The notes under the pieces: generated by a model | The model's input: only the letters and a program-made list of their open reading frames with translations | Database searches by the model: none | What the model was told of the DNA's origin: nothing | Source: Methanohalophilus sp. | GTDB lineage: Archaea > Halobacteriota > Methanosarcinia > Methanosarcinales > Methanosarcinaceae | NCBI RefSeq assembly: GCF_030156785.1 | Contig: NZ_JASGLW010000008.1 | Span: 1 to 64,000, forward strand | DNA: 64,000 bases | Direction of reading: 5' to 3' | Program-made: the position numbers and the translations under genes | Shown: piece after piece, positions 27,983 through 60,788 of the stretch | How positions within the stretch are numbered: the first letter of the stretch is position 1 | Layout of the letters: each line of letters starts with the position of its first letter

Positions 27983-27995
27983 TTATTCCCCTTTC
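27970..27995 (-). terminator. Aconitase terminator
   Basis: A perfect 8-bp inverted repeat, gaaagggg (27970-27977) and ccccttTC (27988-27995), with a 10-base loop. Read on the minus strand it overlaps the aconitase stop codon and is followed by a run of six T. Confidence 0.7.
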
Positions 27996-30760
27996 ACCTT
28001 ATCCCTCAGGAACTTGTGCAATATGCCGCCGTTTTTACAATATTCCACTTCAATATTGGAATTGAGTTTCACAACTACATTAAACGATTTTTCACTGCCG
28101 TCTGCAGTCTTTGCCACAACCTGCAATTCCCCTCCGGGTTGTATATTTGAAACACCAAGGATGTCAAATATTTCGTCTCCTTTAAGACCAAGGGTTTCTG
28201 CACTTTCACCATCTTTGAATTGTAATGGAAGAACACCCATCCCCACAAGGTTGCTCCGGTGGATCCTCTCATAGGATTCGGCTATTACAGCTTTTACACC
28301 AAGCAGTTGTGTGCCTTTAGCGGCCCAATCACGTGAACTGCCTGTGCCGTATTCCTTGCCCGCAATGACTACAAGCGGGATATTGTTCTTCATGTATTGC
28401 ATGGCTGCGTCGTAAATGAACATCTCCTCTCCTGTGGGAAGATAGATTGTCCATGGACCTTCTTTACCAGGTACAAGTTTGTTTTTAAGACGCACGTTGC
28501 CGAAAGTACCACGCATCATTACTTCGTGGTTTCCTCTTCTGGAACCGTATGAATTGAAGTTTTCTTTGGAGACACCCTTGGAAATAAGGTATTTGCCTGC
28601 AGGATAATCCTGCGGAATTTGTCCTGCAGGAGATATATGATCCGTTGTTATGCTATCACCCACAAACACAAGTGTCCTGGCATCCTTTATGTCACCCATG
28701 TTACCAATGTCAATGGGAAACTCCTGGAAGAATGGCGGTTCCTGGATGTATGTAGATTCTGTATTCCAATCATAAAGTAATCCTTTGGGTGCATCGAGTT
28801 TTCTCCAGAGTTCAGATCCCTTGAATACGTTAGAATACTCCACTTCAAACATTTCCGGTTTCACGTATTCAGTGATGTAGCTTTCAATTTCAGCACTTGT
28901 TGGCCATATTTCCTCAAGGTATACAGGCTGCCCGTTTGGATCACAGGCAATTGGTTCAGAAGTGAGATCAACGTCAACAGTACCTGCAAGAGCAAAAGCA
29001 ACCACAAGCATCGGAGATGCAAGATAGTTGGCTTTGACATATGGACTAATCCTGCCTTCGAAATTCCTGTTTCCGCTGAGGACAGCAGCTACGGTCAAAT
29101 CTTTATCTTCAATCTGCTTTGAGATGGATTCACGAAGCGGTCCACTATTTCCAATACATGTAAGACATCCATAACCTACAAGATGGAACCCCAGTGCTTC
29201 AAGGTATGGCATAAGTCCTGCAGCCTCAAGATACTTGGTCACTACCCGTGAACCAGGTCCGAGACTTGTCTTCACAAATGGCTTGACTTTTAATCCACGC
29301 TCAACGGCTTTTTTAGCCACTAAACCTGCTCCTATGAGAACTGCGGGGTTTGAGGTGTTGGTACAGGAAGTTATTGAAGCAATAACCACTGAACCATGTG
29401 ACAGGGAAGGAATTTCATCTTCACATTTTATTTTTGAAATGCCACTGTGATGTTCGTGGGTTTTTTCCACTACACTATATCCTCCTTCCTCAAGCCAGCG
29501 GCTGTATTCGGAATCTTCCTCAAAACATCCACCCCTTTTCATGGCAAAAACGTCTTTTATTGTCTGGTGGAAGTTAGCAGGCATATTCTCAAGCAATATT
29601 CTGTCCTGTGGTCTTTTTGGGCCAGCAAGAGAAGGTCTGACAGAACTCATATCCAGCTCAAGCGTGGAGGTGTATTCGGGATCGGGTGCGTCTGCCAATG
29701 CAAATAATCCCTGTTTCATGCAGTAAGCTTTGACCATTTCCACGTGCTCCTGGCTCCTGCCTGTCATCAGCATGTAATCAAGAGTAATATCATCCACCGG
29801 GCAAAATCCCATGGTTGCCCCGTATTCCGGACTCATATTGGAAAGAATTGCCCTGTCTGTGAGAGTTAATTTTCTGTAGCCGGGACCATAGAATTCAACA
29901 AACTTGCCAACAACGCCGTGTTCCCTAAGCATCTGGGTAACGGTAAGTACAAGATCAGTGGCGGTTACGCCTTCCTGTAATTCGCCATAAAGTTTGAAGC
30001 CCACAACTTCGGGGATTGGCATATAGTATGGCTGTCCGAGCATTACAGCTTCAGCTTCAATTCCACCGACTCCCCAACCAAGAACACCCAGACCATTTAT
30101 CATGGTAGTATGGGAATCAGTACCCACAAGGGTGTCCGGAATACCAACGAGTTCGCCGTTATGTTCCTTAAAATGGACTACCTTTGCAAGATGTTCTAGA
30201 TTTACCTGGTGAATAATGCCGCTTCCAGGAGGAACTACACGGAAATTGTCAAAGGCATTCTGTGCCCAGTGCAGCAGTTCATATCTTTCCCTGTTTCTTT
30301 GGAATTCCTATTTCTCATTGCATTCCTGTGCATTGCAGCTTCCGTAGCAATCTATTTGGATGGAATGATCAATAACAAGATCTGCTGGAATCACAGGATT
30401 TATTTCCTCCGGCTTTCCTCCAAGCCTTGCCATGGCTGACCTTATTGCGGCAATATCAACAACTGCAGGTACACCGGTAAAATCCTGTAGGATTACCCTT
30501 GAAGGAATAAAAGGAATGTCGGTTTGTGGGACATTGTTTGCAGCCCAGCCTGCAAGACTTTTTACGTTATCTGCGGTTACAACGTTCCCATCAACATTTC
30601 TCAGAAGGTTTTCAAGCAAAACTCTTATTGAATAGGGCAGAGAGGCTACATTACAAAGTCCTTCTTCTTCCAGTTTGCTCAGACGGTAGATAGTAATTTC
30701 TTTTTTATTAAATGTGAAAGTATCTTTTGCTCCAAAAGCGTCGGATTTATCATTCATCAT
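27983..30760 (-). CDS. acnA: Aconitate hydratase with one in-frame UAG (probable pyrrolysine)
   Basis: One reading frame of 926 codons encodes a full-length AcnA-type aconitase if the UAG at codon 151 (30308-30310) is read as an amino acid. The N-terminal 150 residues end [12 protein letters not shown] and the protein continues [20 protein letters not shown] in the same frame, both sides matching AcnA, with room for exactly one residue at the UAG. The iron-sulfur motifs [10 protein letters not shown] and [12 protein letters not shown] and the C-terminal swivel domain [19 protein letters not shown] are intact. Aconitase feeds the partial oxidative route from citrate to 2-oxoglutarate in these methanogens, so loss would be costly. 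A nonsense pseudogene is the alternative, but no other damage is seen. Start is ATG 30760 or 30757. Confidence 0.88.
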
Positions 30761-31174
30761 TATTACACCTGCAAAATTTCATGTGTTAGACCGACATATT
30801 TTACACACGGTCTTATCAACCTTGTTATCGAATACTGTTCAAGACTGTACGCTATCCCATCGGAAACCCTGTCAATTCCAATAACACTATTGTGAGTTTG
30901 GGAGGATTTTCGGGTATTTATAGACGACACCTGATAAAATAAACGTTTGAATATATAGGTTTGCTTTCAATTAGGATGAATTTTCGGATATGTTTAAGTG
31001 AGATTGCAAAAATAATTTAAATACAAATTTCCGGATTGTCCCAAGGACATTTTGTCCAGATAGTTCTCGGGAGAGGGAACACATGAAAAGATAGTATTAT
31101 TCGGTTTATTACAGTGATCGCTACGACGGTGGTATTGATAAAGAGAGCAGATCTGGGAAAAGAAGGTGTGCCCT
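30761..31174. promoter_or_regulatory. acnA / corA divergent region with long corA leader
   Basis: About 410 bases between the divergent aconitase and corA genes. A TATA box (tttaaata, 31016-31023) points toward corA, placing its start near 31045 and leaving a leader of about 130 bases. Within it gtcc, ggac and a second gtcc (31036-31063 region) can pair in two exclusive ways, ggaca with tgtcc being one. No gene is visible; minus-strand frames here are not protein-like. Confidence 0.35.
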
Positions 31175-32239
31175 TTGTTAAGACACTCATCCAAGGTATC
31201 AACAAAAGCTGGTCTTCCTCCAGGCACATTGATGAAAGTTGGAGAAAAGCGGTGCGAGAAAACCACCATTTCTGTTATTGACTATGATTCAAAAAGCTTT
31301 GAAGAGCAAACTGTTGAAAGGGTGGAAGATATTTTCCCTTACAAGGATACAGCGAAAGTAACATGGATCAATGTGACCGGAATTGACAACATCGATGTTA
31401 TTGAGAAAATAGGTTCTTATTTTGGCCTGCATCCCCTTGTTCTTGAGGATATTCTCCACACGAACCAGCGCCCTAAGATGGAAGATTTTGGAGATTTCCT
31501 GTATATTGTTCTTAAAATGCTGTATTTTGAAGAAACAGAAAACGATATTATGGCAGAGCAGATAAGCCTGATTCTGGGGAAAAATTATGTGATTTCATTT
31601 CAGGAATCTGAGAAGGATGTATTTGGTCATCTGCGTGAAAGAATCCAAAAATCAAAAGGAAGGATCAGGACAATGGGGTCTGATTACCTTGCCTATAACC
31701 TGATGGATGCAATTGTGGACAATTATTACATCATGCTGGAAAGATTGGGGGAATATATTGATGACATCGAAAAAGAGTTAATCGGCGATCCCGACCGGGA
31801 AATACTGGAAGAGATAAATTACCTGAGAAGTGAGATGATTTTTCTGAGAAAAGCCGTCTGGCCACTAAGAGAAGTCATTCGTAATCTTGAGCGAAGAGAT
31901 TCACTTCTGATACAGGAAAAAACAGTGATTTTCCTGAGAGATCTTTATGATCATACTATACAAATAATAGATACCGTTGAAACTTACAAAGAAATGCTTT
32001 CCGGAATGATTGAACTGTATCTTTCCAGTGTAAGCAACCGTATGAACGAAGTTATGAAAACACTGACTATAATTGCAACAATTTTTATTCCCCTTAGTTT
32101 TATTGCAGGGGTTTATGGAATGAATTTCGAGTACATGCCAGAGCTACAATGGAGATGGGGGTATCCTGCAGTGTTGGTAGTGATGGTCATGATTCTTCTC
32201 TTAATGGTTTTCTATTTCAAGAAGAAAAGATGGCTCTGA
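31175..32239 (+). CDS. corA: CorA-type magnesium/cobalt channel
   Basis: A CorA family divalent cation channel of about 354 residues. The soluble N-terminal domain begins near STKAGLPPGT, a stretch shared by archaeal CorA proteins; the long helical part is charged, and two C-terminal helices flank the selectivity motif GMN (VYGMNFEYMPELQWRWGYP), ending in a basic tail KKKRW. I choose TTG 31175 with agaaggtg upstream; GTG 31166 overlaps that site, and ATG 31229 would remove conserved sequence. Cations allowed through cannot be decided between magnesium and cobalt. Convergent with the CNNM gene. Confidence 0.88.
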   Translation: MLRHSSKVSTKAGLPPGTLMKVGEKRCEKTTISVIDYDSKSFEEQTVERVEDIFPYKDTAKVTWINVTGIDNIDVIEKIGSYFGLHPLVLEDILHTNQRPKMEDFGDFLYIVLKMLYFEETENDIMAEQISLILGKNYVISFQESEKDVFGHLRERIQKSKGRIRTMGSDYLAYNLMDAIVDNYYIMLERLGEYIDDIEKELIGDPDREILEEINYLRSEMIFLRKAVWPLREVIRNLERRDSLLIQEKTVIFLRDLYDHTIQIIDTVETYKEMLSGMIELYLSSVSNRMNEVMKTLTIIATIFIPLSFIAGVYGMNFEYMPELQWRWGYPAVLVVMVMILLLMVFYFKKKRWL

Positions 32240-32323
32240 AAAAGCGGAGATGAAATTATTCATTAAAATCTCTCATTCTTGATTTTTCAAATCAGGTATT
32301 TTTCATAATAAGGGAATGGTAAA

Positions 32324-33337
32324 TCATACTCTCACGACAATTCCACGTAGTAGTCTCCCAAGTATATCGGAACCTGTTATGATTCGTTTTTCATCAGGTC
32401 CCCAATAGAGAAGGAGATCCATGTCAATAACATCATCATCCGGGTGTACTGAATAGACCTTCAGTCTCGGAATTACACTATCCAGTTTTGTATCAGGAGA
32501 TGTAATCACTATTGGGCGATGGCAATATGCAAAAGGATTAAATGGTTTTTCCCTGAAAAGGACATCTCTGAGGAAACCATCGGCATCCATTACCATTACA
32601 GGCTGGAAAAGGTGATCCGTTATTATTACCCACTTTTTACCAGATATATTAATCCTTTTGAGAAACGGATCGGAAGGTTCCCGTGTTATTTCCGGGAAAA
32701 CCGGAAGCCCATTTTCAATTGGAAGCGTAATAATGCTATCTGGATCTATGACAGAACCTTCCTCAGAAATACTTATGTCGTCAATTGAAAGGAAATTCAG
32801 AGCTCCAATACCTTCAAATCTTCCTATATCTGTTTTTGAAGATTTTATGTGTTTCTCAAGCATTATGCGGAAAGAATTTTCCTTGAAATAAGTCATCTGC
32901 TCTTTTCCAAGCCAGTGATCAAGCATCATAGCTGTAGGTTTTGCCACAGGGTAGAACAGAATTTGATATAACCTGACCATCGGCACAAGCTATGCACCAG
33001 CACTCATAGCTTTTCTTGTGAAGTAGGCCTGTGGGGCAATTTCTCCAAAACATGTGATAAAGACTGCTGAAAATATGAACGCTGCAGTTCCTGTCATAAC
33101 AGAATCAGTTAGCAGCGCAATTAAGACGTTAACACTAACATTACCCCATAACAATGTAGTTAGCAGGTAATTTGAATCCTTTCTTATTTCCAGTATTTTT
33201 GCTGCACTTTTGTTGCCAGCTTCTGCTTCGGTTTCAAGCCATAAGCGAGTTAAACCAAAAAGCCCTATCGTAAGCCCGGAAAACAAAGCAGATTGTACCA
33301 AACAAAGAAAAATCAGGATCCAGATGACTAGGTTCAT
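32324..33337 (-). CDS. CNNM/DUF21 transport-related membrane protein with one in-frame UAG (probable pyrrolysine)
   Basis: A 338-codon frame encodes a CNNM/CorC-like protein if the UAG at codon 116 (32990-32992) is read through. Residues 1-115 form the DUF21 membrane domain (LFSGLTIGLFGLTRLWLE, LLTTLLWGNVSVNV, CFGEIAPQAYFTRKAMSAGA); after the UAG the same frame continues LVPMVRLYQILFYPVAKP, which is the expected next part of the domain, and then a soluble region with CBS-like stretches. Spacing fits one residue at the UAG. CNNM proteins act in magnesium or cobalt handling, which suits the neighbouring corA. The gene would otherwise be called as two proteins of 115 and 220 residues. Confidence 0.8.
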
Positions 33338-33448
33338 ATTACTTCATTTACCCCAAATCGTGATCAGATTCATGTACACAATTGTATTATGTTAATTATG
33401 ATTTATATTGCTACCCATAGGGATTCATCCATATACTAAAATGATTCA

Positions 33449-33509
33449 GGATTGTTTGCGCTTTTTTTAATCGAATACTCCATTGGGTATTCCTGAATGC
33501 AAACAATCC
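33449..33509. repeat. Nested inverted repeat
   Basis: Perfect 11-bp arms ggattgtttgc (33449-33459) and gcaaacaatcc (33499-33509) enclose a second perfect pair, gaatac (33473-33478) and gtattc (33487-33492). In addition attcagg (33444-33450) and cctgaat (33492-33498) are inverted copies. It could be an operator, a cruciform or a small element; it lies 37 bases ahead of the small frame at 33546. Confidence 0.55.
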
Positions 33510-33545
33510 AAGACATTGCCTCCAAGTACTTAATATACCCAAAGT

Positions 33546-33713
33546 ATGGCTTCATTGTTTGTACATGGTATGAATCCTATCTCAAAAGAACAACATGATG
33601 TATTTTATTCAATTTTTGTTAATGAATTACTCGATCCTTACTCACTACTCTCAAAGAAACGAATTATTCAAAAAAGCAGAGCAGTTTTCGATGATTTTTA
33701 TGGGGGTAAATGA
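33546..33713 (+). CDS. Possible small protein, unknown
   Basis: A 55-residue frame starting at ATG 33546 and ending in TGA. Its composition looks protein-like (MASLFVHGMNPISKEQHD near the start, KSRAVFDDFYGG at the end) and it is the only frame in the region with this quality. There is no good ribosome site; a TATA-like ttaatata lies only about 10 bases upstream, too near for a normal promoter. No family recognised. It may be the start of a decayed gene. Confidence 0.3.
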   Translation: MASLFVHGMNPISKEQHDVFYSIFVNELLDPYSLLSKKRIIQKSRAVFDDFYGGK

Positions 33714-33901
33714 ACAAGAGTCTGAATTTATTGTTTCTTTGAAAATTATCTATTCCGTTTTTGGGTGTAGAATGATAATCGTAGATTTTTTATGTCTAAA
33801 ATGTGCGGTGGCTCAATCATCTTGCATAGCAATCTATGGGAAAATCATGAATTGATTTCATGAGATGCTATATTGAAAACACTGAATAATAAAAATAGAA
33901 A

Positions 33902-33976
33902 TGCTCCGATGGGGATTCGAACCCCAGTCACAGGAGTGAGAGTCCTGTATGATTGGCCGTGCTACACTATCGGAGC
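33902..33976 (-). tRNA. tRNA-Glu (CTC)
   Basis: On the minus strand the acceptor arms gctccga and tcggagc pair; the anticodon stem cagga/tcctg holds the loop ctctcac with anticodon CTC, reading GAG. The T loop is ttcgaat. CCA is not encoded. Confidence 0.95.
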
Positions 33977-34046
33977 ACACGTACTAACCACCTAAATACG
34001 GATTAATCTATATTAATTTTTTGTTCTAAAAAACTAGAGAGGTGGG

Positions 34047-35273: not shown

Positions 35274-35700
35274 GTGGACAGCCTATAGATATCATCCAAT
35301 ATAAACCCAACTATAGTATCTTCTTTTGCAGGCAAACGCTAAAAAATCTTTATTCACTGTTTTCACAATCACATTGTTAGTTTTTATTCATTCTTTGTTT
35401 TTCAATTTTAAAGCCAATAATAGATTTATTTCTGAATTTAAAGATTAAATAACACTTTAATACAGTCTAAAACTAACCCCTTCATTTCCACTGGAAATTA
35501 GTTATATATCTATAGATTATTGCTCTAATTAGTTTCTTGATATGTCGATAGAGCCATTAAAAATACAGGGCTTTTTGTATTATTATAGCTTATTATGGCA
35601 TTAAATTCTGCAAAAACAGTATTCTACAGTAATCTATTAGAAACATTTATATGTAATCAGTGTTTACTATTAATTTGTCAAATCACATTATATTTGTAAT
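35274..35700. promoter_or_regulatory. Control region upstream of the winged-helix gene
   Basis: A 427-base AT-rich stretch between divergent genes. It contains a perfect palindrome, atttcca-c-tggaaat (35484-35498), two bases before a TATA-like ttatatat (35502-35509), the position expected of an operator. A second TATA-like sequence (tttatatg, 35646-35653) lies nearer the gene. No reading frame is credible. Confidence 0.4.
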
Positions 35701-36438: not shown

Positions 36439-36469
36439 TTTAAATTAGTGTATTTCCTAATTGAAGACA

Positions 36470-36712
36470 ATGTCTTCAGGTTCAAGTTTCCAAAAGGGCA
36501 TTTCATTGATTTTTTTAGGTATTTTTTTTCTTGTTATAGGATTAATAGTGAAAGCATTTGAGAACAGTGGAAGCAATTCAGAGTTTGGCGGAATTATTCT
36601 CATAGGGCCATTTCCCATTGCTTTTGGTTCTTCTCCTGAAATCACAACAACAATGTTGTTTGTCGGAGCTGCCCTCTTTATTTTCTATATGATCCTACGG
36701 AGGGGAGTATGA
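36470..36712 (+). CDS. DUF131 family membrane protein, copy 1
   Basis: An 80-residue protein with two membrane helices (about 11-30 and 56-75) around the stretch GGIILIGPFPIAFGSSPE, the mark of the archaeal DUF131 family, whose function is unknown. I use ATG 36470; an in-frame TTG at 36461 is possible. Its stop codon overlaps the start of the second copy (ATGATG). Confidence 0.75.
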   Translation: MSSGSSFQKGISLIFLGIFFLVIGLIVKAFENSGSNSEFGGIILIGPFPIAFGSSPEITTTMLFVGAALFIFYMILRRGV

Positions 36713-37002
36713 TGATTGGTGATTTTCTAATAATTGTGGGAATGATTTTGCTGATCTATGGTGTACTACTGATGGTAAAATCAGGCGTATCTTCACAAAA
36801 CAATGGTAAAAAACAAAATGGCAGCGATTCTGGTTTTGAAAATACGGTCAGGGAGCAATCGCATTTTTCCGGCGGTGGCGTGATAATGATTGGACCAATT
36901 CCAATAGTATTTGGCTCAGATAGCAAGGGAGCTGAAGTTGCGATGAAACTTGCTGTTGTGCTAGTTCTCCTCTATATTATACTGTTTGTCTTTTTCCGCT
37001 GA
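36709..37002 (+). CDS. DUF131 family membrane protein, copy 2
   Basis: A 97-residue paralog of the preceding gene with the same plan: helix, polar linker, GGVIMIGPIPIVFGSDSK, helix. The start overlaps the stop of copy 1, so the pair is translationally coupled and may form a heteromer in the membrane. Function unknown. uvrB follows after 46 bases. Confidence 0.75.
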   Translation: MMIGDFLIIVGMILLIYGVLLMVKSGVSSQNNGKKQNGSDSGFENTVREQSHFSGGGVIMIGPIPIVFGSDSKGAEVAMKLAVVLVLLYIILFVFFR

Positions 37003-37048
37003 CTACAGGATTACATATTTACACTTTCAAAACACACTGTGAAATGCA

Positions 37049-40011: not shown

Positions 40012-40224
40012 CTAAAAAATTGTGTTTTTAGAGGTTAGGATTGTACCCACTGCAGTAAAAGTCGTTAAAGCATACAGATTGAGGAAAACACGCCTGATTT
40101 TGACATTCCTGTGTTCTTTAAAAACATCCTGGATTTCCTCGAGATTTACGTCAAATTCCTGCTTGCCCATACAAAAAATCCTTCTCTGCCTGTAATCATC
40201 TTCTCTTCCAGCAGTTGGATTCAT
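40012..40224 (-). CDS. Possible small protein behind the sensor kinase
   Basis: A 70-residue frame whose ATG directly follows the TGA of the kinase gene, suggesting coupling. The second half has a hydrophobic stretch (VFLNLYALTTFTAVGTIL) that could be a membrane helix. It ends in TAG; reading through would add only seven residues to a TAA. Because every sound gene here avoids TAG as a stop, this weakens the call. No family recognised. Confidence 0.3.
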   Translation of the reverse strand: MNPTAGREDDYRQRRIFCMGKQEFDVNLEEIQDVFKEHRNVKIRRVFLNLYALTTFTAVGTILTSKNTIF

Positions 40225-41031
40225 TCAGATTTTACCATTTTCGTTGCCTAGATATTTTTTAAATTTGAGAATAAAAAGAGCTCCGTGTGGATTATTGTTT
40301 TCTACCTGTATTGAACCATAACGATCCATTGCAGTTTTGACAATGTATAAACCCATTCCACCATTACTTGTGGAAAATCCTTTATCAAAAATCTTCTTTT
40401 TTATGGAATCATGTATGCCGGTCCCGTTATCACTTACTATGACTTCTACTTCATCTTCTGTCTCTTTTACTTTTATATCAACAGTATCTGCCTTCCCATG
40501 TTTAATTGAATTTTCTAGCAGGTTTTCAAAAATTGAATATATGACCTCATCGGCCATGACTGTGGCATCGCCTTCTATGTTTATTTTCAAATCATATTGA
40601 TCATGTAATTTTTCAAAAACCTTATTTAATTGAAATGGTTTGAGTTTTTTCTCAAAATCCAGTGTTTTTTCAAATATTTTCATTTCGTTTATCCGGGAAA
40701 TACTCTTTTCTACTGCTCTTTTAATCATATCAAGATATTTGTCATCCCTTTTATTCCTGAATAAATCTACAGACATTAAAATTACATTAAGGTCATTGAA
40801 TATGTCGTGGCGAAGGATCTGGTTGACTGATTTCAGTTCTTTTATGAGCCGTGCCTGCTGTATTTGTATATCCTTTTTTTCTGTGATATCCTCATACACT
40901 GCAACAACATTTCCATTTGCAAGTTTGTAGATATCGTTGTCCCTCCATCCTTCTCTTTTAGAGTCATAATAGTGGAAGGGGTCTATATGAATATGATTGC
41001 CTGTATTCCAGACCCTTCTTAAATTATCCAA
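40225..41031 (-). CDS. Sensor histidine kinase, C-terminal half (frameshifted gene)
   Basis: The kinase half of a membrane sensor broken by a frameshift near 41030-41045. It begins in the second half of a PAS domain (RRVWNTGNHIHIDPF, KLANGNVVAVYEDITEKK), then has the phospho-acceptor stretch QILRHDIFNDLNVI with the His, and a complete ATPase domain (FENLLENSIKHGKA, VSDNGTGI, GGMGLYIVKTAMDRYG). The TTG at 41031 is merely where this frame first has a start-like codon; the natural protein would run on from the upstream half. A sequencing error or true mutation cannot be told apart here. Confidence 0.75.
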   Translation of the reverse strand: MDNLRRVWNTGNHIHIDPFHYYDSKREGWRDNDIYKLANGNVVAVYEDITEKKDIQIQQARLIKELKSVNQILRHDIFNDLNVILMSVDLFRNKRDDKYLDMIKRAVEKSISRINEMKIFEKTLDFEKKLKPFQLNKVFEKLHDQYDLKINIEGDATVMADEVIYSIFENLLENSIKHGKADTVDIKVKETEDEVEVIVSDNGTGIHDSIKKKIFDKGFSTSNGGMGLYIVKTAMDRYGSIQVENNNPHGALFILKFKKYLGNENGKI

Positions 41032-41036
41032 AAAGC

Positions 41037-42005
41037 CTATTTCTCTGGAGTTGGGGAAAACGAAAGTAATTTTTTTCCGATGATATCTTCCTTTTTCACC
41101 CCTTCTATTTTTTCCACTGCCGGATTTATATCCTTGATCAGGAAGTCTTCTCCGTTGTCAACCGGTTCATAAACAACTACTCCGCTTTTCATTGTCGTGA
41201 AAAGATTTTTGTATCTTTCTTTTTCCTGATTTAATTCCCCGAACAACATCTCATAGGGGTTGTCAAGACTTGAAATTATCACTGCTTTATAGATCAGATA
41301 AAATGAAATTAACTTACAAAAATGTCCTACAAGGTTTGAAAATCCATACACACTTATGTAGAAAGTAAAAGCGAGTTCTGCAATTATGGTAAAAACAATA
41401 GCCAATGACAGATCTCTGTACACATTGGGTAGGAAGTTATTTCTTTTTTGATGAAGTAATTTGAGTGCTATTAGCAGGATTAAAACTATCAGGTATTCGC
41501 TGTATATTTTAAAAGAAGTCAATCCTTCTCCTTCTATGTAAGAATCCGGGAAATATCCGCCAAAAATTGAAACAATCAGGATTGTTGTTATGATAAAATA
41601 GGTTATTGTCACATTTGATGCTTTTATTTTTTTTCCAATGAGGGAAAACGATACTACGAGAGTCAAACTTTCCAGATATCTTGCTGCTATCCACAGTTGG
41701 GTGGGTAGATTTGCATCATAGCCGGAAAATATATTCATGCCCTTATATGCAAGGGTATGTAAAAGGTCAATAGAGGCTATGAACAGGTATGCAATTCCCG
41801 TAATCAGGACGTAATTATTTTCTATAATATCTCTGCGGTTCCAGACTATCAGGAAAAAAGCAAATGCAATAATTATGCTGAATAATTCCACAAGGGAATG
41901 GAATAAAAGATAATTGTAAAGGCTTATAATATACAACCCGGTGATTGCCACTATTAGAAAGATGATATCAATATTTTTTCGAACATTGGTATTACTTTGA
42001 TGCAT
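41037..42005 (-). CDS. Membrane sensor, N-terminal half of the frameshifted histidine kinase
   Basis: The N-terminal half of the same kinase, with about nine hydrophobic helices (residues 10-230) resembling the MASE3 type of membrane sensor domain, followed by the first half of a PAS domain (TTMKSGVVVYEPVDNG, IEGVKKEDIIGKKLLSFSP). The frame ends in TAG directly where the PAS domain should continue; the continuation is found one frame away (EIGFLDNLRRVW). Reading the TAG as an amino acid does not help, since TAA follows five codons later. Start taken at ATG 42005 with agaagg upstream. Confidence 0.7.
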   Translation of the reverse strand: MHQSNTNVRKNIDIIFLIVAITGLYIISLYNYLLFHSLVELFSIIIAFAFFLIVWNRRDIIENNYVLITGIAYLFIASIDLLHTLAYKGMNIFSGYDANLPTQLWIAARYLESLTLVVSFSLIGKKIKASNVTITYFIITTILIVSIFGGYFPDSYIEGEGLTSFKIYSEYLIVLILLIALKLLHQKRNNFLPNVYRDLSLAIVFTIIAELAFTFYISVYGFSNLVGHFCKLISFYLIYKAVIISSLDNPYEMLFGELNQEKERYKNLFTTMKSGVVVYEPVDNGEDFLIKDINPAVEKIEGVKKEDIIGKKLLSFSPTPEK

Positions 42006-42676
42006 ATATGGCCTTCTTAATGTGAATGGAAGTAACTGCAAATTCTAGAATATGGATCGGTTTTAGTTATATATTATTATATTTGTTGTATTTAGCCTAT
42101 TTCAAAACTACTAATTATTTTCAGTGAAGAATTTATTCATTTATGGCTGTAATAGTAGTTTTTTCTAAATTAAAGTGGGATAAAGCTGTTGTTTCATAGA
42201 AATTCTCTCAATTAAATTTATTCATATTATACAACTCAAATGGACTATTCTCATATTTTTAACAGCATTATCCCCACATCTCCAACCTCTCCCTTACATG
42301 AGCATTCAAACTAAAAGGTTTACCAGACTTAGCGTTCTTCTTCATGTAATGTAAAGTACCCTTAGAAAATCCCATCTTCTCCCATTCAGAATATGAAATA
42401 CTTAGTGTTTTGTGCCTCGTTTAATTCGAGGTTGTGTAATATTTGTCTAATTAGAAATTTGTTTTTTACCACCATAAAATCATATCGGCATTAATATGTG
42501 TTAATAATTTGTGCTGAAAACTATAAAACCAACGATGTATGAATTCTGCAAATAGCCCACTAACTAAAATTCAAAACGGTTCCTTTGGGCAAGCCTCAAT
42601 ACTTTTCTAAATCCTTGAAATTATAGTTTGTTGAGAGGGATAAAAATGTATATAGTAATTGAGCATATAGTTTTAT
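42006..42676. other. AT-rich gap holding a Cas1-like relic
   Basis: About 670 bases between the sensor kinase gene and the exported-protein operon. The only supported content is the minus-strand relic at 42268-42420 described separately. I see no CRISPR repeats, no other cas sequence and no RNA gene. The promoter of the following gene is presumably near 42640-42670, where tttatatg lies directly before the ATG. Confidence 0.4.
42268..42420 (-). pseudogene. Relic resembling the C-terminus of Cas1
   Basis: A 50-codon open stretch with no start codon, closed by TAA, reading ISYSEWEKMGFSKGTLHYMK and then NAKSGKPFSLNAHVRERLEMW. This pattern (a helix, G-x-SKGTLxxxK, then KPF and a final helix) is that of the C-terminal end of many CRISPR Cas1 integrases. 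A TAA stands immediately upstream in the same frame, so nothing more of the gene remains. The family call rests on memory of Cas1 sequences and is tentative. Confidence 0.45.
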
Positions 42677-49967: not shown

Positions 49968-49971
49968 TGGA

Positions 49972-50480: not shown

Positions 50481-50919
50481 ATGTTATTATAGTCCGTATA
50501 TCTCTGTACCACCTTATAGTTTCTTTATGTCCCTTTCAATAACAGAATGCTGGTTTTTATCCACTTTCACTCATGCAATTTTTTCAATATGACATACCGG
50601 TTTCAAATGGTCGTCAGGTGAAAGTAACCAATAAGTTCTTCATAATAAGTTAAGTTCCTGCCGACAAGCTCCATAAGGACTTCAAGACACTCTCTGCAAA
50701 ATTTGGTATTGCTGGAGTTTCATCACATGGAAACGTGGGTCTATCATCAGAATGAGTTGTTTCTCCCTATTTTGATTATCCATTGTTACCCTATTTTAGT
50801 AAATAATAATCACTATAGGAGTTATTTATATAAGGATTACCTCTCGCTTGTGGCACATTTTCCAAATATAAGAGCATCTTGTATATCAAGATAAACTAAT
50901 GCCTCTTTGGCAGAATATT
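50481..50919. other. Gap between pilin and ATP synthase operons
   Basis: About 440 bases. One plus-strand piece, 50667-50753, reads like protein (ADKLHKDFKTLSAKFGIAGV, then SSHGNVGLSSE and TGA) but has a TAA just upstream and no start, so it is probably a relic. I cannot name its family. Nothing else is supported. Confidence 0.3.
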
Positions 50920-51096: not shown

Positions 51097-51100
51097 AGTC

Positions 51101-51718: not shown

Positions 51719-51732
51719 GATACATCACCTGT

Positions 51733-53118: not shown

Positions 53119-53119
53119 T

Positions 53120-54856
53120 TCAGTTGCCTCCAAGCTGTGCAAATTCTTCATCCATCTTTGCCATTACTGCCTCGAGGGCCGCATCAAAGTCTTCCTCAAA
53201 CTTGACCTTTGCAAGTTCGTCTTTGGATTTCATTTCCATGATCTTTTTCATCTGGACGCCCTGCTCTAGTTTTTCAGTTGCAGTGCCTGCAAATTTTGAA
53301 ATTGCTTTGAGCAGTTTGTACTGTTTGTCAAATGGACAGAATGTATCCACCGGATGGAATGCGTTTTGCTGAAGGAAGTATTCCCTTATCATCCTTGCAA
53401 TTTCAAGGGTAAGCTGCTGGTCTTCCGGCAGTGCGTCGGAACCTACCAACTGCACGATTTCCTGAAGTTCAGCTTCTTGCTGAAGTATATCCATTGCGTT
53501 TTCCCTGAGGTCGTTCCAGTCTATACCTACGTTCTCTGTAAACCAGTTAGCAAGTGTCTGATTATACAGTGTGTAGCTGTTAAGCCAGTTGATGGCGGGG
53601 AAGTGTCTCCTCTGGGAGAGCTTTGCATCCAGTGCCCAAAACACTTTCACAATGCGAAGTGTATTCTGTGTAACAGGTTCAGAGAAGTCACCACCCGGAG
53701 GTGAAACCGCCCCTATTACCGTAATTGAACCGTCCAGTCCTGCAAGGGAGTTTACAGCACCTGCGCGTTCATAGAATTCGGCAAGTCTTGCAGAAAGGTA
53801 TGCAGGATAACCTTCCTCACCAGGCATTTCTTCAAGCCTTGAGGAGATTTCCCTCATTGCTTCAGCCCATCTGGAAGTAGAGTCTGCCATTAGTGATACA
53901 TCGTATCCCATGTCACGGTAATATTCTGCAATAGTAATTCCAGTGTACACAGACGCTTCACGTGCTGCTACTGGCATGTTGGATGTGTTTGCTATTAAAA
54001 CTGTACGTTCCATGAGTGGCCTTCCGGTTTTTGGATCTTCGAGTTCGGGGAACTCGTTAAGAACATCAGCCATCTCATTACCACGTTCTCCACATCCGAT
54101 ATAAACTACAATATCAGTGTCACTCCATTTCGCAAGCTGCTGCTGGGTAACTGTCTTCCCGGATCCAAATGGACCAGGTATGGCAGCAGTACCACCTTTT
54201 GCTACCGGGAACATTCCGTCGAGGATTCTTTGACCGGTAATAAGTGGCTTGTTCGGAGTAGTCTTCTTGTTAACAGGTCTTGGTTGTCTGACTGGCCATT
54301 TTTGCATCATTGAAAGTTCTGTTCCGTCGGAGAGTACACAAATAGTTTCATCAACAGTAAACTTTCCTTCCTTGATTTCACTAACAGTGCCGGAAACATT
54401 AGGTGGAACCATAATTTTGTGTTCGATATTAGGTGTTTCCTGAACAACACCAATAATCTCACCGCCCTTTACATGGTCTCCAGAACTTACAGTAGGTTTG
54501 AAATCCCACTGTTTTTCCCTGTCAAGACCATTTGCTGTGACACCTCTCTCAATGAAGTCTCCCATTTTTTCCTTCAATACCTGTAGAGGTCGCTGAATAC
54601 CGTCGTAAATACTTTCCAATAATCCAGGTCCAAGTTCTACGGACAAGGACATTCCGGTGTTTTCGACAGGTTCACCGGGCCTGATTCCGGCAGTATCTTC
54701 GTATACCTGAACGATTGCTTTGTCTCCTTCAATCTTGATAACTTCGCCCATAAGCCCTTCGTGACCAACCTTAACCACATCATACATTTTAGGTTTGATT
54801 CCGGTAACGGTAACTACTGGACCTGCTACACGATAAATTTCACCTTTCACTTCCAC
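53120..54856 (-). CDS. ahaA: A1AO ATP synthase subunit A (catalytic)
   Basis: Subunit A (578 residues) carries the catalytic sites of the A1 head. Walker A is GPFGSGKT in [15 protein letters not shown] near residue 233, with [11 protein letters not shown] and the Ser/Thr-rich [17 protein letters not shown]. The long non-homologous insert of A-type subunits (about 115-185) is present. The GTG start lies inside the end of ahaF. Confidence 0.97.
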
Positions 54857-55149
54857 AAATCTACACCTACCGCTTGTTTTATCTTATCTCTTATGTTTGA
54901 ACTCTGGCTTGTTCCTCCAAGAGTCACTAGAGTTGGTTCTACAGATTCACTAAGTTTTTCTCTTAGAATTTCCGGTAGTTTATTAAAATCGTCGCTATTC
55001 ATTACAAGGATTCCGACTTCCGAATCATCAATGACATCATTGACTTTTGCCTCTAGTTCCCCGTCATCCTTGATTTCGTGAACTTTCTTGATACCTGCCA
55101 GCCTGAATCCGGTGACAAATTGGTCTTTTCCTACAACTGCAAGTTCCAT
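54847..55149 (-). CDS. ahaF: A1AO ATP synthase subunit F
   Basis: Subunit F (100 residues) is a small Rossmann-like protein of the central stalk. [20 protein letters not shown] is the family start, and [15 protein letters not shown] follows. The ATG overlaps the ahaC stop (TGATG), and the end overlaps ahaA by 10 bases. Confidence 0.93.
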
Positions 55150-56231
55150 CAAATCACCAACTGATTCTTTATTAGCTCTTCACTGAGATTGGAGGCTTTT
55201 CCCCTGACAATTATCCTAAGATTGCGAATCTCATTTTTCTTGTTCAGGATATAATCCATGATTGGGGCAATTGAGAGAGGATACTCATGTGAGAAGCTTC
55301 CAGCAGTTCGAAGACTATATTTAGTTAATTGTGTTTCCAGATCTGTCAATGAGTCTATATTGGGATCAGCAATATCTGCAATTGCATTCCAGTAGGAATA
55401 TTTCTCAAGAGACTGCAATAACTCTTCAAAAGATAGGGGGAGCAACTTTTCAATTTCAGCGAGTCCAAGTTCAAGCCCTCCCGCAATCATCAGATCTGCA
55501 CTCTTTTCTGCATCAATCGTTCCATATTTCTTGAGTCTCATTAACAGTGTGATGTTTTTGATGTCAATTTCTGTACGAATGAATTTCATGAAATGCCTTC
55601 GATCACTGATTTTTGTACTACCAAGTGTCTGAAACAGGCTGCTATAATACATATGATCTAAAAGGTTTTCGATCTTCCAGAGCTGTCCTTTTTCATATTC
55701 TTTCAATATTATGTAATATTGAGTGTTCTGGAGGGCTTCAATTACATCATCTTCTGAATCTTTTTCCGCAAGAGCAGAAAGCTTTCCATAGCTGAGTTGA
55801 CCGGCTGCAACCAGACTTTCCTTAATTTCATCCACCGGTGCACCGTAGTACTTTCCTCTCAGAATAGCCTTAATATTCCATATATCATAGTCCTTAAGAT
55901 ACTCTGTAAGTATGTAATTCAGCTCACCGTTAGTAAAATTGATAATTTTTGTGAAAGTACTTGCCAGGTTTTTGTTCAATGCATGTTCAATGAGGTCAAT
56001 TCCGTCATAGGTTCTTGCCAGCTCATCGACGTCCTGTTTGTATTCAGATTCTTCGATAAACCTGATGATCTCATCAATTTTCATATTCACAAGTCTTGCG
56101 TATGTCTCTTTTGGCAAAAGCTTACTTTTCATTGCCCGCACACGCGCAACAGAATATGCATAGTTAGAACTGCCCCGACTTTGCACAGGACTAACCATAC
56201 TTTTACTCCGGAATTTTTCCAATAGGCGCAT
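55149..56231 (-). CDS. ahaC: A1AO ATP synthase subunit C
   Basis: Subunit C (360 residues) joins the central stalk to the membrane ring. It is mostly helical with [20 protein letters not shown] near the start. I choose ATG 56231 with gggtga upstream; TTG 56246 within the end of ahaE is less likely. Order E-C-F matches the Methanosarcina operon. Confidence 0.92.
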
Positions 56232-56238
56232 CTGGCAA

Positions 56239-56790
56239 TCACCCAAACAAAATGTCAGAAATCTGTTTCAATGAACGCTCATTAACATCGTTGAGAATAC
56301 TGTCATAGGTATAGTCAAAACGAACTGTACCATCATCGTTTTCAATTACAACTCCTCCAATGCAGTTGATATTTCCTGCATATTCAAGCGTTGATAATTT
56401 TTTCACGAGTTCTTCAGAGTCTTTATTCGAATATATTTTAGTACCATTTTCCTGATACTGATCAATGATAGCTTTCAGCAACTCTTCGTTTTTTGAAGGA
56501 GTCAATGATGCTATCGAATCGGCAGCTTTAGAGTAGACTTTTTCAAGCAGTTCTTTGCGAGCATTGAGCATTCTTCGTTTAACTTCCAGATTGGCACTGG
56601 AGATGGCTTGGTTCCGCATTTTTTCGATATCATTTTCAGTTTTTGCAAGTATGTTACCTTTGATCCGCTTTGCTTCCTCTTTTGCATCTTCAAGTATTCG
56701 GGATACTTCGGTTTCAGCTTCTGCGTCCATCTTGGCAACTTCGGCCTGTGCAACTTCCATAATATCGTTTATGACCGTTTCGAGTCCCAT
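56239..56790 (-). CDS. ahaE: A1AO ATP synthase subunit E
   Basis: Subunit E (183 residues) with H forms the peripheral stalk. The N-terminal half is a long charged helix (EVAKMDAEAETEVSRILEDA), followed by a small folded C-terminal part (NINCIGGVVIENDDGTVRFD). ATG 56790 is behind gaaggtg; TTG 56805 would add five residues. Confidence 0.93.
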   Translation of the reverse strand: MGLETVINDIMEVAQAEVAKMDAEAETEVSRILEDAKEEAKRIKGNILAKTENDIEKMRNQAISSANLEVKRRMLNARKELLEKVYSKAADSIASLTPSKNEELLKAIIDQYQENGTKIYSNKDSEELVKKLSTLEYAGNINCIGGVVIENDDGTVRFDYTYDSILNDVNERSLKQISDILFG

Positions 56791-56838
56791 GCTTTTCACC
56801 TTCAAAAAGGTAAGAGCGAAAATGCTCTTAAACCACTT

Positions 56839-57072
56839 TTATTTGATAAGCAATGCAACAACAAGACCGAAGATAACGATACTCTCCGGAATAACGGTCA
56901 TGATCAGACCCTTACCGAACATTTCCTCCTTTTCGGTCATTGCAGCTACTGCTGCGGTACCAATGTCTTTTTCACCGAGACCGGATGCAATTCCTGCAAG
57001 TCCAACTGCAAGTCCTGCTCCAATTGCTTTTAACCCTGATGGGTCCATTGTTGTTAATTCTTCTCCGACCAT
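56839..57072 (-). CDS. ahaK: A1AO ATP synthase subunit K (membrane ring, c subunit)
   Basis: A 77-residue proteolipid with a single helical hairpin: AIGAGLAVGLAGIASGLG, polar loop, GLIMTVIPESIVIFGLVVAL. Glu63 in the PES stretch is the ion-binding residue. Helix 1 has no Gln at the place typical for a sodium site, but coupling ion choice cannot be settled from this alone. Confidence 0.95.
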   Translation of the reverse strand: MVGEELTTMDPSGLKAIGAGLAVGLAGIASGLGEKDIGTAAVAAMTEKEEMFGKGLIMTVIPESIVIFGLVVALLIK

Positions 57073-57075
57073 AGT

Positions 57076-59016
57076 TTATTCCTCCGTGTATTTTCTTTTA
57101 TATCCGAATGGATTGTACTTTTTGCCCCCGCCTTCATAGAATTTAGTAAAGAATTCGACATACTGCAACCTGAGTGAATGTAATCCGGGGGCAATGATAC
57201 TCAGGATGGTGTTTATTGCATGTCCTATTAGGAAGACGATTATTGCAACAAATGTCATAATACCAAACTTCTCAGGCATCAGCATCTCAAAGGCAATGAG
57301 ATTGACAGTTGATGCAATATAAACAGACGATAATCCAACAGCTGCGATACGGGAGTATGATAGTGTGTTACTGAGAAGGGTTGGAAGTTCAAGAGGTCCT
57401 TTAATACCTTCCCCTTTAGCCAGCATCACTACTCCTATCAATAATACAGCTGCTCCAATTGTCACTGGCATATATCCAAGAGCACCAAGTGCGATAAGGC
57501 CAGCTCCGATTTCTACAATAAACCAGCTTGCCTTTTCAAGTACGGCTGCCGGCAATCCGTGTTTTTTATATTCATTAATAAATCCAAGTATATAGCCCAT
57601 ATTTATGTGAATTATGCCAATGATTATGCTTATCAAAATCATTGTAGTAGCCATGTGAGTTCTGTGGATAGGATATGTTATTACCTCTCCTGCAATGGGT
57701 GATTCAAATAATGTAATAGTTTCGAATCCCGGTATAAGGCCCTCGACGACCCCATGCTCAGTATGCAAGCTTGCCAGTGAGAATCCAAGGACTTCTCCAT
57801 AAAGGAGACCAAAAATCAGCGAACTGATTTGACAGTATATCAGTACATTCATTAATGGAACAAGCCCCTCGATCTTGACAAACTTCTTAATACCAAGTGC
57901 AAGGCTGAGTAATATTAGTGCATAGCCAATGTCTCCAAGGATCATGCCATAAAACAGCGGGAATGCGATGAATACAAGTACCGTAGGATCAAGTTCTGTA
58001 TAACGTGGGCGTGCATAAAGATCCATAATCGCCTGGAAAGGCCTTGATATCTTGGGGTTATCATACTCTATTGGTATGCTCTTCTCTTCTTCCTTAATCT
58101 TCACTTCCTGTTCAGTAACAAAAACATGCCCGTTTGTTGCTTTTTCAACAGTAGTTTTTAATTTCTCAAAATCTTTTGAAGGCACCCATCCATCTATAAC
58201 AAAACTTTGTTCAGATGTGGCAAATCTCAGCGGAGCTTCAGATTTTTGTGACTCAATTGAAAGGATTTCATCAGTTGCAAGAATGAAATCAGAGTATTTT
58301 TCTCGTATACTGGTAATATCCCTATCGATAGCTTCTATCTGGGAGAGTATCTTTGTTTTTTCCTGCTCTGCATTGCTGATAAGTTCAGCAGGTTTTCCTT
58401 CAAGTTTTGGAATTTTCAATTCACGGTATTCAAATTCTAAAAGCACTTTTGAAATACTTTGTTCCATTTCCTTCTTTACAAAAAGTGCAATCACATTCTT
58501 TTGTGAATCGTAATCAAGTTCAAACTCATTTGTTATTTCTGAGATTGCAGATCTAACATCTTCTTTGACTATACCTACAAATACAGCTATGCTTTCATAA
58601 CCACTGTAATTCTCTAAACTAATAGGTATTCCGGTTAAAGGTTCTAGGTCTTTCTGAAGGGCTTCCAGATCCTTTAGACGATTTTCAAGTGCCCCCTTTT
58701 CGTCGGTTTTTTCGTTGAGCTCACTTTCAAGTGCCGACAATTTTTCATCGAGCTCCATCCAAAGTCTTTCAGCATTCTGCTTAGGTACTTCTTTTGGCTT
58801 AATACCAAGGTAACTGGATATGGCCCTGAGTTTGACAAGTTTCTTTGACACATCAGCTGCATTCTCAAAAGGTTTGCCTATTTTAAACGTGGACTCAGAT
58901 TCATTGAAGTCCTCAATATGTAATATATTAGTATTGTGAAGTGTATCTACCGTTTTATTCAGGACATTCTTATGTCCTACAATAACGGCTCGACTCATAG
59001 ATTGGGGCTTAAGCAT
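57076..59016 (-). CDS. ahaI: A1AO ATP synthase subunit I (a subunit)
   Basis: Subunit I (646 residues) forms the ion path against the K ring. The N-terminal half is cytosolic with coiled coil (KLSALESELNEKTDEKGALE); the C-terminal half has about eight helices (FIAFPLFYGMILGDIGYALI, SYSRIAAVGLSSVYIAS with the essential Arg). ATG 59016 overlaps the end of ahaH and has gagagg upstream; an earlier in-frame codon at 59031 is less likely. Confidence 0.95.
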   Translation of the reverse strand: MLKPQSMSRAVIVGHKNVLNKTVDTLHNTNILHIEDFNESESTFKIGKPFENAADVSKKLVKLRAISSYLGIKPKEVPKQNAERLWMELDEKLSALESELNEKTDEKGALENRLKDLEALQKDLEPLTGIPISLENYSGYESIAVFVGIVKEDVRSAISEITNEFELDYDSQKNVIALFVKKEMEQSISKVLLEFEYRELKIPKLEGKPAELISNAEQEKTKILSQIEAIDRDITSIREKYSDFILATDEILSIESQKSEAPLRFATSEQSFVIDGWVPSKDFEKLKTTVEKATNGHVFVTEQEVKIKEEEKSIPIEYDNPKISRPFQAIMDLYARPRYTELDPTVLVFIAFPLFYGMILGDIGYALILLSLALGIKKFVKIEGLVPLMNVLIYCQISSLIFGLLYGEVLGFSLASLHTEHGVVEGLIPGFETITLFESPIAGEVITYPIHRTHMATTMILISIIIGIIHINMGYILGFINEYKKHGLPAAVLEKASWFIVEIGAGLIALGALGYMPVTIGAAVLLIGVVMLAKGEGIKGPLELPTLLSNTLSYSRIAAVGLSSVYIASTVNLIAFEMLMPEKFGIMTFVAIIVFLIGHAINTILSIIAPGLHSLRLQYVEFFTKFYEGGGKKYNPFGYKRKYTEE

Positions 59017-59335
59017 AGATTGTCCTCTCAAATTCTTCGATAAGGTACTCTACGGCTTTATCCATGTTCACTTCGGCCTTTTGTACAAGCTTCTCTATAT
59101 CCTTGCTGCCATTTTCCAGAACTGCTTCGTATTCTGCCTTTATAGTTTTTTGAGCAGACTCCAGTAAGCTCTTTGCAGAGGCTTCAGCTTCGTCTTCTGC
59201 CTGTTTTATAATTTCTTTTGCTTCAGACCGTGCTTTCGCGATATTCTCGTTTTTGCTTTTCAGGCCTTCCTCTCTCATTCTGGCAGCTTTTTGCTCTGCT
59301 TCTTTTATTTCAGATAAGATTTTATCTTTGGCCAT
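59009..59335 (-). CDS. ahaH: A1AO ATP synthase subunit H
   Basis: Subunit H (108 residues) pairs with E in the peripheral stalk. It is one long charged helix (DKILSEIKEAEQKAARMREE) and ends EEFERTIYA. ATG 59335 has gaggg five bases upstream; ATG 59347 in frame contains that site and is rejected. First gene of the operon; a TATA-like tttatatg (about 59403-59410 on the minus strand) lies at a plausible distance. Confidence 0.9.
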   Translation of the reverse strand: MAKDKILSEIKEAEQKAARMREEGLKSKNENIAKARSEAKEIIKQAEDEAEASAKSLLESAQKTIKAEYEAVLENGSKDIEKLVQKAEVNMDKAVEYLIEEFERTIYA

Positions 59336-59548
59336 GTGAACCCTCATTAAATCTGTGATTGGTAATAGTGCACGATTTCACACACCCTATAGCAAACTTA
59401 CATATAAACTATTCGGTAAGTGGTCTTTTGATGCTGAAATGTTCATAATTTATCATACTTAAAGCTGTTAAAAAAAGGATTAAGAAAAAGTAGAATCTTA
59501 TATTTTACACATAACCACAGGGTACACTCTTCTCTGAGGATATGTGTG

Positions 59549-59604
59549 CCGGCTAGCCTCTGTGATTAGAGTTTTTCCGTTTGTATGATCTTCTACAGAG
59601 CCGG
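59549..59604 (-). terminator. Possible terminator hairpin between radical SAM gene and ATPase operon
   Basis: Arms ccggctctgt (59604-59595, minus strand) and acagag plus ccgg (59563-59558 and 59552-59549) pair with a five-base bulge and a loop of about 30. It starts 5 bases behind the radical SAM stop codon. A weaker cacata/tatgtg pair follows. No strong T run, so its role as terminator is uncertain. Confidence 0.35.
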
Positions 59605-59609
59605 AGGAA

Positions 59610-60788
59610 TTATTTAATCCGAATGGGGAGTTTTGCATCTTTTGGAATTGTGTGAATATAACGTTCCCTGAAAGAGGGGGATCTCATCATACAATATTCA
59701 GCATTTGAACGATAAGCTGTGTGCTTACCCATGTGCTTCCAGATATCTGCCAGGCTTTCTTCCTTAACATTCCCAAATGAAAGTGGTGTGTATGCACAGG
59801 GTATAACCTCACCGGCAGGGGTAACATGCATCCATCTGCGTCCTGCAAAACATCCGAACATTTCGGGGCCCATGAAATATGGGAATGCTGTGACTCTGGG
59901 TCCGCCATTCATATGGTTTTTGTTCTTTTGGAATTTTTCAAGATGTTTCACATCTTTTTTGGTAATAACCTCATCTTCGTGCTCAAGCCATCTACCCACT
60001 GCGATTATTTCGTAAATGGACATCTCGTGCATGCCCATACTTTCTGCCATCCCATAAAAATCCTCAAGTTGATCAATATTGTCAGGTGAAATAACCACGA
60101 ACATATCGGTTAGCATACCGGCATCAAGTGAGTTTTTAATACCTTCGATAGCATCTCTGAAGGCTCCTTTGCGACCACGTATGCGATCGTGTTCCTCTTC
60201 CTCGGGACTATCAATGCTTATTCGCATTGCATACATCCCCGCATTCTTGAGATCCTGTGCCCTTTTTTGGGTCAGTCCAAAGCCGGAAGTAAAACAGGTA
60301 TTGATGGTTTTTTGAGAATCAACCCTTTGAGCTATTTCAACAATATCATTCCTTACCATTGTTTCCCCGCCGTCAAAAGAGATCAGGTAGGAACCAAGAT
60401 CAATGGCCTGTTCGATTGTGTTAACAATCTGATCTGCAGTTAGTTCTTTATCAGTAACAAAACCGTCTGCACCACAATGAATACAGCGGTTGGGACATCG
60501 GTCAGTGATCGCAATAGAAAACTGGTCAGGGACGCGCTTTTTCATAATAGATGCAATCTCTGCACTAATCATACGGTTGAATGCTTCGCCTGGTATGGGT
60601 GGTATCCATGTGGAAAATATTAGTGTTTCTTCATCGAAATAAATTGGTTTTTCTTCCTAGAAAATCCTGTTTATCCTCGATATTATGGGTTTTGCCAGTG
60701 TTGAAAACACTCCCTCTGTATTGAGGACTACTTTGCCATTTTCCAGTTCTGCATTAACCTTAATCATGGGTTTTTCATAAACTCGCAT
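59610..60788 (-). CDS. Radical SAM protein with one in-frame UAG (probable pyrrolysine)
   Basis: A 393-codon frame. The start ATG 60788 lies 14 bases after the polyprenyl synthase stop and 8 behind a strong aaggagat site. Codons 1-43 (MRVYEKPMIKVNAELENGKV to SRINRIF) lead to a UAG at codon 44 (60657-60659); the same frame continues EEKPIYFDEETLIFSTWIPP and then the radical SAM core with CPNRCIHC (Cys98, Cys102, Cys105), GGETMVRND, and a C-terminal SPASM-like part (GCFAGRRWMHVTPAGEVIPC). No family function is recognised. Without UAG decoding the ribosome site would serve a useless 43-residue peptide, and a protein starting at ATG 60572 would have no ribosome site and lose about 72 residues. 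Confidence 0.82.

Follow-up and report, generated by a model that had tools for sequence, protein, structure and literature searches.

Three genes with a single in-frame TAG

The stretch of DNA analysed here (the window) is 64,000 nucleotides long and corresponds to C10:1-64000 of a Methanohalophilus metagenome-assembled genome (G000), which comprises 1,550,882 bases in 19 contigs and is 94.55% complete. The minus strand of the window encodes an aconitase, a CNNM membrane protein and a radical SAM/SPASM protein, and the reading frame of each contains one TAG codon (Table 1). The subject of this study is the decoding of UAG, as pyrrolysine or as stop, in these and other genes of G000. The Pfam matches of aconitase and CNNM run across their TAG sites, and the radical SAM and SPASM matches start past the TAG, from residue 104.

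Table 1 Positions of the genes and features described in the text; positions without a contig (C) or locus (L) label are those of the window
Feature	Position	Strand	Detail
AcnA-type aconitate hydratase (aconitase), 925 codons	27983..30760	minus	TAG at codon 151 (30308-30310)
CNNM (cyclin M N-terminal) membrane protein, 337 codons	32324..33337	minus	TAG at codon 116 (32990-32992)
Radical SAM/SPASM protein, 392 codons from 60788	59610..60788	minus	TAG at codon 44 (60657-60659); codon 54 if the 402-codon long frame is counted
62-amino-acid frame, doubtful gene	36457..36645	minus	ends with TAG; without Pfam family
70-amino-acid frame, doubtful gene	40012..40224	minus	ends with TAG; without Pfam family
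Sensor kinase, split between frames	40225-42041	minus
Sensor kinase, N-terminal half (MASE3)	41037..42041	minus	ends with TAG, TAA five codons later; MASE3 at 41040-42041
Sensor kinase, kinase half	40225-41031	minus	kinase domains at 40228-41031
Relic of a 451-amino-acid protein	50490-50719	minus	parts of residues 345-451 of the G005 homologue, in two frames
tRNA-Pyl	C9:36922-36993		anticodon CTA
Terminal TAG of pylB	C9:39361-39363 (L001:3278-3280)		one base ahead of the pylC start
MtaC paralogue	C9:208217		intact
GNAT acetyltransferase	L138:439-1038		TAG common to G005; conserved beyond TAG
104-codon protein	L129:18136-18450		TAG common to G005; conserved beyond TAG
390-codon protein	L132:6803-7975 (C7:26803-27975)		TAG at codon 368
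Archaeal CCA-adding enzyme, 448 codons	L124:12208-13554 (C1:72208-73554)		TAG at codon 421

Seven genomes of the same genus were compared with G000. Three of them match, with identical values, loci named as Methanohalophilus profundi, M. euhalobius and Methanohalophilus sp. RSK, from which the genus is taken to be Methanohalophilus. The closest relative, G005, which may be Methanohalophilus levihalophilus, is 88-91% identical to G000 across the three proteins. Among the matches listed, with the G000 copy itself excluded, every relative with an alignment across the site has one sense residue and no gap in the TAG column: 22 of 22 relatives for aconitase, 24 of 24 for CNNM, and 38 of 38 loci for the radical SAM protein, where some loci are a single genome entering by two routes. 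The codon in G005 is TAT (Tyr) at the aconitase and CNNM sites and AAA (Lys) at the radical SAM site, where the remaining same-genus genomes have CAG (Gln). Other relatives contain Tyr, His, Leu, Phe, Lys or Arg at the aconitase site and Tyr, Arg, Leu, His, Lys, Ser or Thr at the CNNM site; over all loci, the residues at the radical SAM site are Lys, Gln, Glu, Arg, Ala, Leu and Gly. In these alignments, all three TAG sites are variable positions. The alignments bear out an earlier note on this DNA, according to which each gene keeps its frame around exactly one UAG, with family sequence on both sides and space for one residue. The aconitase of another genome of the genus (G003, L034) has an in-frame TAG of its own elsewhere, facing Arg 375 of the G000 protein.

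Read with the standard code, the window contains 59 genes, which end with TAA (27), TGA (27) or TAG (5). The TAG-ended calls are aconitase, CNNM, the frames of 62 and 70 amino acids, and the N-terminal half of the frame-split sensor kinase. The earlier note counted 57 genes without a TAG stop, which is nearly right, and found UAG only at the kinase frameshift, behind the 70-residue frame and in relics. The kinase and the 70-residue frame stand, and the TAG-ended frame of 62 amino acids, which was not named, has to be added.

Pyrrolysine genes of G000

The pylTSBCD genes lie together on contig C9. The gene for tRNA-Pyl is located about 90 bp upstream of that for PylS, which is 406 amino acids long and has both its N- and C-terminal domains. 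PylB, PylC and PylD come after PylS, and all four proteins score over their curated NCBIfam cut-offs. Absence of pylTS was looked for as an argument against the decoding of UAG, and both tRNA-Pyl and PylS were found. Of the 60 genomes examined, 33, among them G000, have a PylS that exceeds the cut-off. G000 also contains a methylamine methyltransferase gene with an in-frame TAG, mttB, which has TAG at codon 334 and is over the trimeth_pyl cut-off. A 458-codon gene with TAG at codon 202 and no NCBIfam match is presumably mtmB, judging by its context.

The sample of G000 used for the comparisons of stops, orthologues and tRNAs consists of the window and 40 further loci, 823,174 bases or 53% of the genome. 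No second tRNA with a CTA anticodon besides tRNA-Pyl was found in these 823 kb. In its tRNA-Pyl(CUA), PylS, PylB, PylC and PylD, and in its TAG-bearing mttB, G000 is like a pyrrolysine-decoding archaeon.

TAG as a terminator

Gene calling in the G000 sample, based on a simple hexamer model and the standard code, resulted in 800 genes. Their stops are TAA in 409 and TGA in 364 (773 together), and TAG in 27, so TAG is strongly avoided as a terminator. The stops of 820 genes in 800 kb of G005 are 436 TAA, 366 TGA and 18 TAG. Of the 27 genes that end with TAG, 13 could be paired with a G005 orthologue from the sample; for the remaining 14, no G005 match reaches 60%. Not one of the 13 orthologues has TAA or TGA as its stop at the position of the TAG. 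A sense codon stands there in nine (in a DUF4130 gene, just three codons from its end); three share the TAG, with related sequence following it; the last is pylB. An abundance of TAG stops in confident genes had been named as evidence against pyrrolysine decoding, and is not what is found.

Symmetric control for mid-gene stops

Proteins of G005 were aligned to the G000 sample, and 457 of the 1137 had a best hit of at least 65%, giving 131,998 aligned codons. Inside these alignments, G000 contains 12 TAG, 10 TAA and 3 TGA codons in frame. A strict mid-gene cut, which demands at least 50% identity over 20 columns on each side of the stop, leaves 8 TAG, 0 TAA and 0 TGA, with one TGA a single column short of the cut. 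Under random nonsense mutation on the codon usage of G000, eight TAGs out of eight have p ~1e-4 to 5e-4. No other in-frame stop is present in the alignments of the eight genes. The four TAGs below the cut are positioned near gene starts (two) and gene ends (two), and the 13 TAA and TGA codons all align to either the first 20 or the last 28 codons of the G005 protein, with over-extended starts accounting for a part of them. In the reverse comparison, 447 of 761 G000 proteins were matched to G005, where the alignments contain 3 TAG, 5 TAA and 3 TGA codons, of which the strict cut retains 2 TAG, 0 TAA and 0 TGA.

The TGA that narrowly misses the cut belongs to the relic in the window, the TGA and TAA of which are both among the 13 cases; it is flanked by 11/19 and 16/20 identities. 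This relic is a case of real decay, in contrast to the genes interrupted by TAG only.

A read-through test based on coding scores only, with 26 sites (11 TGA, 10 TAA, 5 TAG), was dropped because neighbouring genes in the same frame dominate its signal, and the homology control took its place. A G005 gene in the G005:C2:460130 region (L239) has an internal TAG where G000 has Glu. We take it to be DNA adenine methylase-like, with the TAG directly ahead of what would be the DPPY motif.

TAG sites across the genome and their conservation

If TAG is taken as a sense codon, 60 of the 800 G000 frames contain a TAG, many of them over-extended starts or doubtful short frames. Dropped from this set were c7, which is tRNA sequence, c43, a leader, and c32, which is doubtful and may be antisense, as well as c13, c21, c23 and others in which the TAG precedes the likely start, and any frame that has no homologue. 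Judged by eye, about 20 TAG-bearing genes are convincing in the examined half of the genome.

In twelve genes, the TAG is aligned to a sense codon of G005. They encode aconitase, CNNM, the radical SAM protein, a TOBE/HTH regulator, a small methyltransferase, CrcB, the 390-codon protein (without Pfam family), the DUF4130 protein, a CDP-alcohol phosphatidyltransferase, a NUDIX protein, a trypsin/PDZ protease and a DUF434/DUF5616 protein. Nine of the twelve G005 codons are one step from TAG, compared with 11.8% of all codons (p 7e-7); with the dropped c13 and c21, the G005 codons of which (AGA and GTA) are not one step away, the count is 9/14. The TAG of the NUDIX gene immediately follows the start codon and leaves no room for a truncated product. 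The ratio of non-synonymous to synonymous substitution rates (dN/dS, Nei-Gojobori), pooled over the twelve genes, is 0.074 upstream of the TAG (1596 codons) and 0.059 downstream (2160 codons), at a pooled dS of about 1.3. The sequence beyond the TAGs appears to be strongly conserved, and the TAG itself looks like a neutral sense codon at variable sites, not a catalytic one.

The TAG is common to G000 and G005 in three genes: mttB, the GNAT acetyltransferase and the 104-codon gene. Other relatives have Arg (5/6) or Lys (1) at the GNAT site and mostly Lys or Gln at that of the 104-codon gene. The 390-codon protein ends beyond its TAG with QSSLFDF, and its G005 counterpart with KSLFDF. The QSSLFDF tail resembles a PCNA-interacting motif, and read-through may be needed for clamp binding. 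Among the TAG-bearing genes for which the sample offers no G005 match of 60% or more are an aminotransferase, the CCA-adding enzyme, the TAG of which falls within the Pfam match of the C-terminal domain (285-429), and one of two MtaC copies that are over the cut-off. The TAG-bearing MtaC was set aside as a central case, because an intact paralogue is present.

The terminal TAG of pylB

The pylB gene is an exception to the rarity of TAG as a terminator in G000. Its stop is TAG in 37 of 41 loci, or 34 of 38 distinct family genomes, which are the best-matching 38 among 95 genomes whose PylB exceeds the cut-off, after removal of four genomes that were present twice and addition of G005. The other four genomes, all of one genus, have TGA. 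Most of the other loci have a start-type codon as far beyond the pylB TAG as the pylC start is in G000. In contrast, pylS ends with TAG in none of the 41 loci. Rother and Krzycki (2010; PMC2933860) give TAG for pylB in three species and TAA in Methanosarcina barkeri. That the pylB UAG is kept by selection is a suggestion only, given its absence from M. barkeri and from one genus, and the common descent of the genomes. It is possible that the TAG makes the coupling of pylB to pylC sensitive to pyrrolysine.

Decoding of UAG and alternative explanations

Taken together, the comparisons indicate that UAG is very probably a working sense codon for pyrrolysine at the G000 sites, which is compatible with partial termination. 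In the proposed mechanism, the products of the complete pylTSBCD set would make pyrrolysine and charge tRNA-Pyl(CUA), which would read UAG wherever it is present. With UAG almost given up as a terminator, a point mutation that creates TAG at a tolerant site, out of TAT or TAC, AAG, CAG, GAG, TGG, TCG or similar codons, would insert pyrrolysine rather than end the protein. TAG sites would then drift into and out of ordinary genes, and enzymes such as aconitase would gain them at unimportant positions by chance mutation.

There is nearly an even chance that decoding is ambiguous, with UAG read partly as pyrrolysine and partly as stop, giving full-length and truncated products; this would agree with pyrrolysine decoding and oppose full reassignment. 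An amber codon introduced in Methanosarcina acetivorans, where UAG is both sense and stop, yielded 20-30% of full-length product (PMC2933860), and Pyl-tRNA competes with the release factor (PMC9499178). G000 encodes one aRF1 over the cut-off, and the terminal TAG of pylB is widespread in the family. However, TAG stops are rare, 12 of the 13 comparable ones have a G005 sense codon or a common TAG with related sequence beyond, and poor read-through would be costly at the aconitase TAG and at codon 2 of the NUDIX gene. The opposite extreme appears rather unlikely: every UAG would be pyrrolysine, in a complete reassignment with 62 sense codons, pyrrolysine would drift through the housekeeping proteome, and the pylB UAG would be selected as a pyrrolysine sensor. 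When pyrrolysine is plentiful, ribosomes would pass the pylB UAG and travel out of frame over the pylC start, reducing pylC translation, and when it is scarce, the coupling of pylB to pylC would be restored.

It is very improbable that the TAGs are plain nonsense mutations in pseudogenes. Decay does occur in the window, where the sensor kinase is frameshifted and the relic keeps only the last quarter of its homologue, interrupted by a TGA, a TAA and a shift of frame. Decayed genes had been expected to show UAA and UGA as well, and the strict control holds TAG alone; the sequence past the TAGs is conserved, and two of the TAGs outside methyltransferases are common to two species. Assembly or sequencing errors, conceivable in a metagenome-assembled genome of 19 contigs, are less probable still: they have no reason to prefer TAG over TAA and TGA, and would not recur at the same place in G005. 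Equally remote is a different suppressor tRNA that would decode UAG as one of the canonical amino acids. Many of the sites hold Tyr, Lys, Gln or Glu in relatives, but tRNA-Pyl is the sole tRNA with a CTA anticodon in the 53% of the genome scanned.

Several points count against pyrrolysine decoding of these genes or narrow its support. The evidence is from sequence, from which we infer the insertion of pyrrolysine, its efficiency and the functional status of the full-length proteins; the TAG sites are taken from the assembly of an incomplete genome. The aRF1 of G000, which is accompanied by three weak matches, may still terminate at UAG. More than half of the TAG-ended genes (14/27) are without a G005 comparison. 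A nearby second stop as a back-up for TAG found no support: TAA or TGA follows within 8 codons in 9/27 genes ending with TAG, 134/407 with TAA and 115/364 with TGA. The dN/dS values of single genes are rough, several dS values are saturated, and short tails can have high ratios (c8, 6 codons, 1.17; c53, 7 codons, 0.37). Very recent inactivation is compatible with the low dN/dS, because the values mostly reflect the time before a recent TAG, a caveat that the TAGs common to G000 and G005 escape. The intact MtaC paralogue means that the TAG copy need not be read.

Relation to known cases and implications

Like the methyltransferases MtmB, MtbB and MttB, the window genes have a single in-frame UAG with the frame kept, which would be read by tRNA-Pyl. 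Pyrrolysine is catalytic and conserved in the methyltransferases, whereas the window sites are variable and have sense codons in G005. The mttB TAG334 of G000 has the same position number as the pyrrolysine measured in MttB of Methanohalophilus portucalensis (residue of 237.3 Da; PMC4928046). Thg1 of M. acetivorans, the pyrrolysine of which is ascribed to neutral evolution (Heinemann 2009, as described in PMC2933860), is another parallel, a housekeeping enzyme with one species-specific UAG for a non-essential residue. As in cases of the Thg1 type, the G000 UAGs occupy variable positions at which relatives have sense codons. G000 differs from Thg1 in having many such predicted proteins in one genome and a symmetric TAA/TGA control.

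In Methanohalophilus mahii, of the same genus as G000, citrate synthase has an amber codon for which the authors propose pyrrolysine (PMC3017947). The enzyme catalyses the step of the citric acid cycle adjacent to that of aconitase, which in G000 is accompanied by comparative tests. A literature search for aconitase and pyrrolysine listed two papers with both words, PMC9393736 and this one, the excerpts of which place the amber codon in citrate synthase and not in aconitase. The prediction of pyrrolysine genes and their neutral evolution are treated in PMC3639795, the infrequent amber stops of the seventh order and the Methanosarcinaceae in PMC3941956, and a comparison of the genus mentions the pyrrolysine tRNA (PMC6491703).

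G000 has TAG nearly abandoned as a stop and many in-frame TAGs, and in this it is like the "Pyl code" archaea in which, as Kivenson and colleagues reportedly described in Science in 2025, all TAGs are read as pyrrolysine. It differs from them in that its pylB keeps a terminal TAG. The main inference of the earlier note, that UAG is decoded as pyrrolysine, is supported. Its proposal that pyrrolysine use would widen to general metabolism needs qualifying: Thg1 and the citrate synthase of M. mahii had already taken such use beyond the methylamine methyltransferases, and the G000 sites look neutral, not like a functional extension. The decoding mechanism is known, and G000 adds a well-supported case that offers many candidate proteins. 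The literature excerpts covered do not describe the bias to TAG alone in a symmetric control, the TAG at codon 2, the two common TAGs outside methyltransferases or the breadth of the pylB exception.

Annotation with the standard code truncates such genes at UAG or labels them pseudogenes, as befell M. mahii citrate synthase (PMC3017947), and therefore aconitase and other enzymes could be reported as missing from the lineage. With several natural pyrrolysine proteins unrelated to methylamine metabolism, a relative in culture would provide a direct test of the extent of stop reassignment beside an ordinary release factor, and of the effect of pyrrolysine on proteins in which it has no catalytic role.

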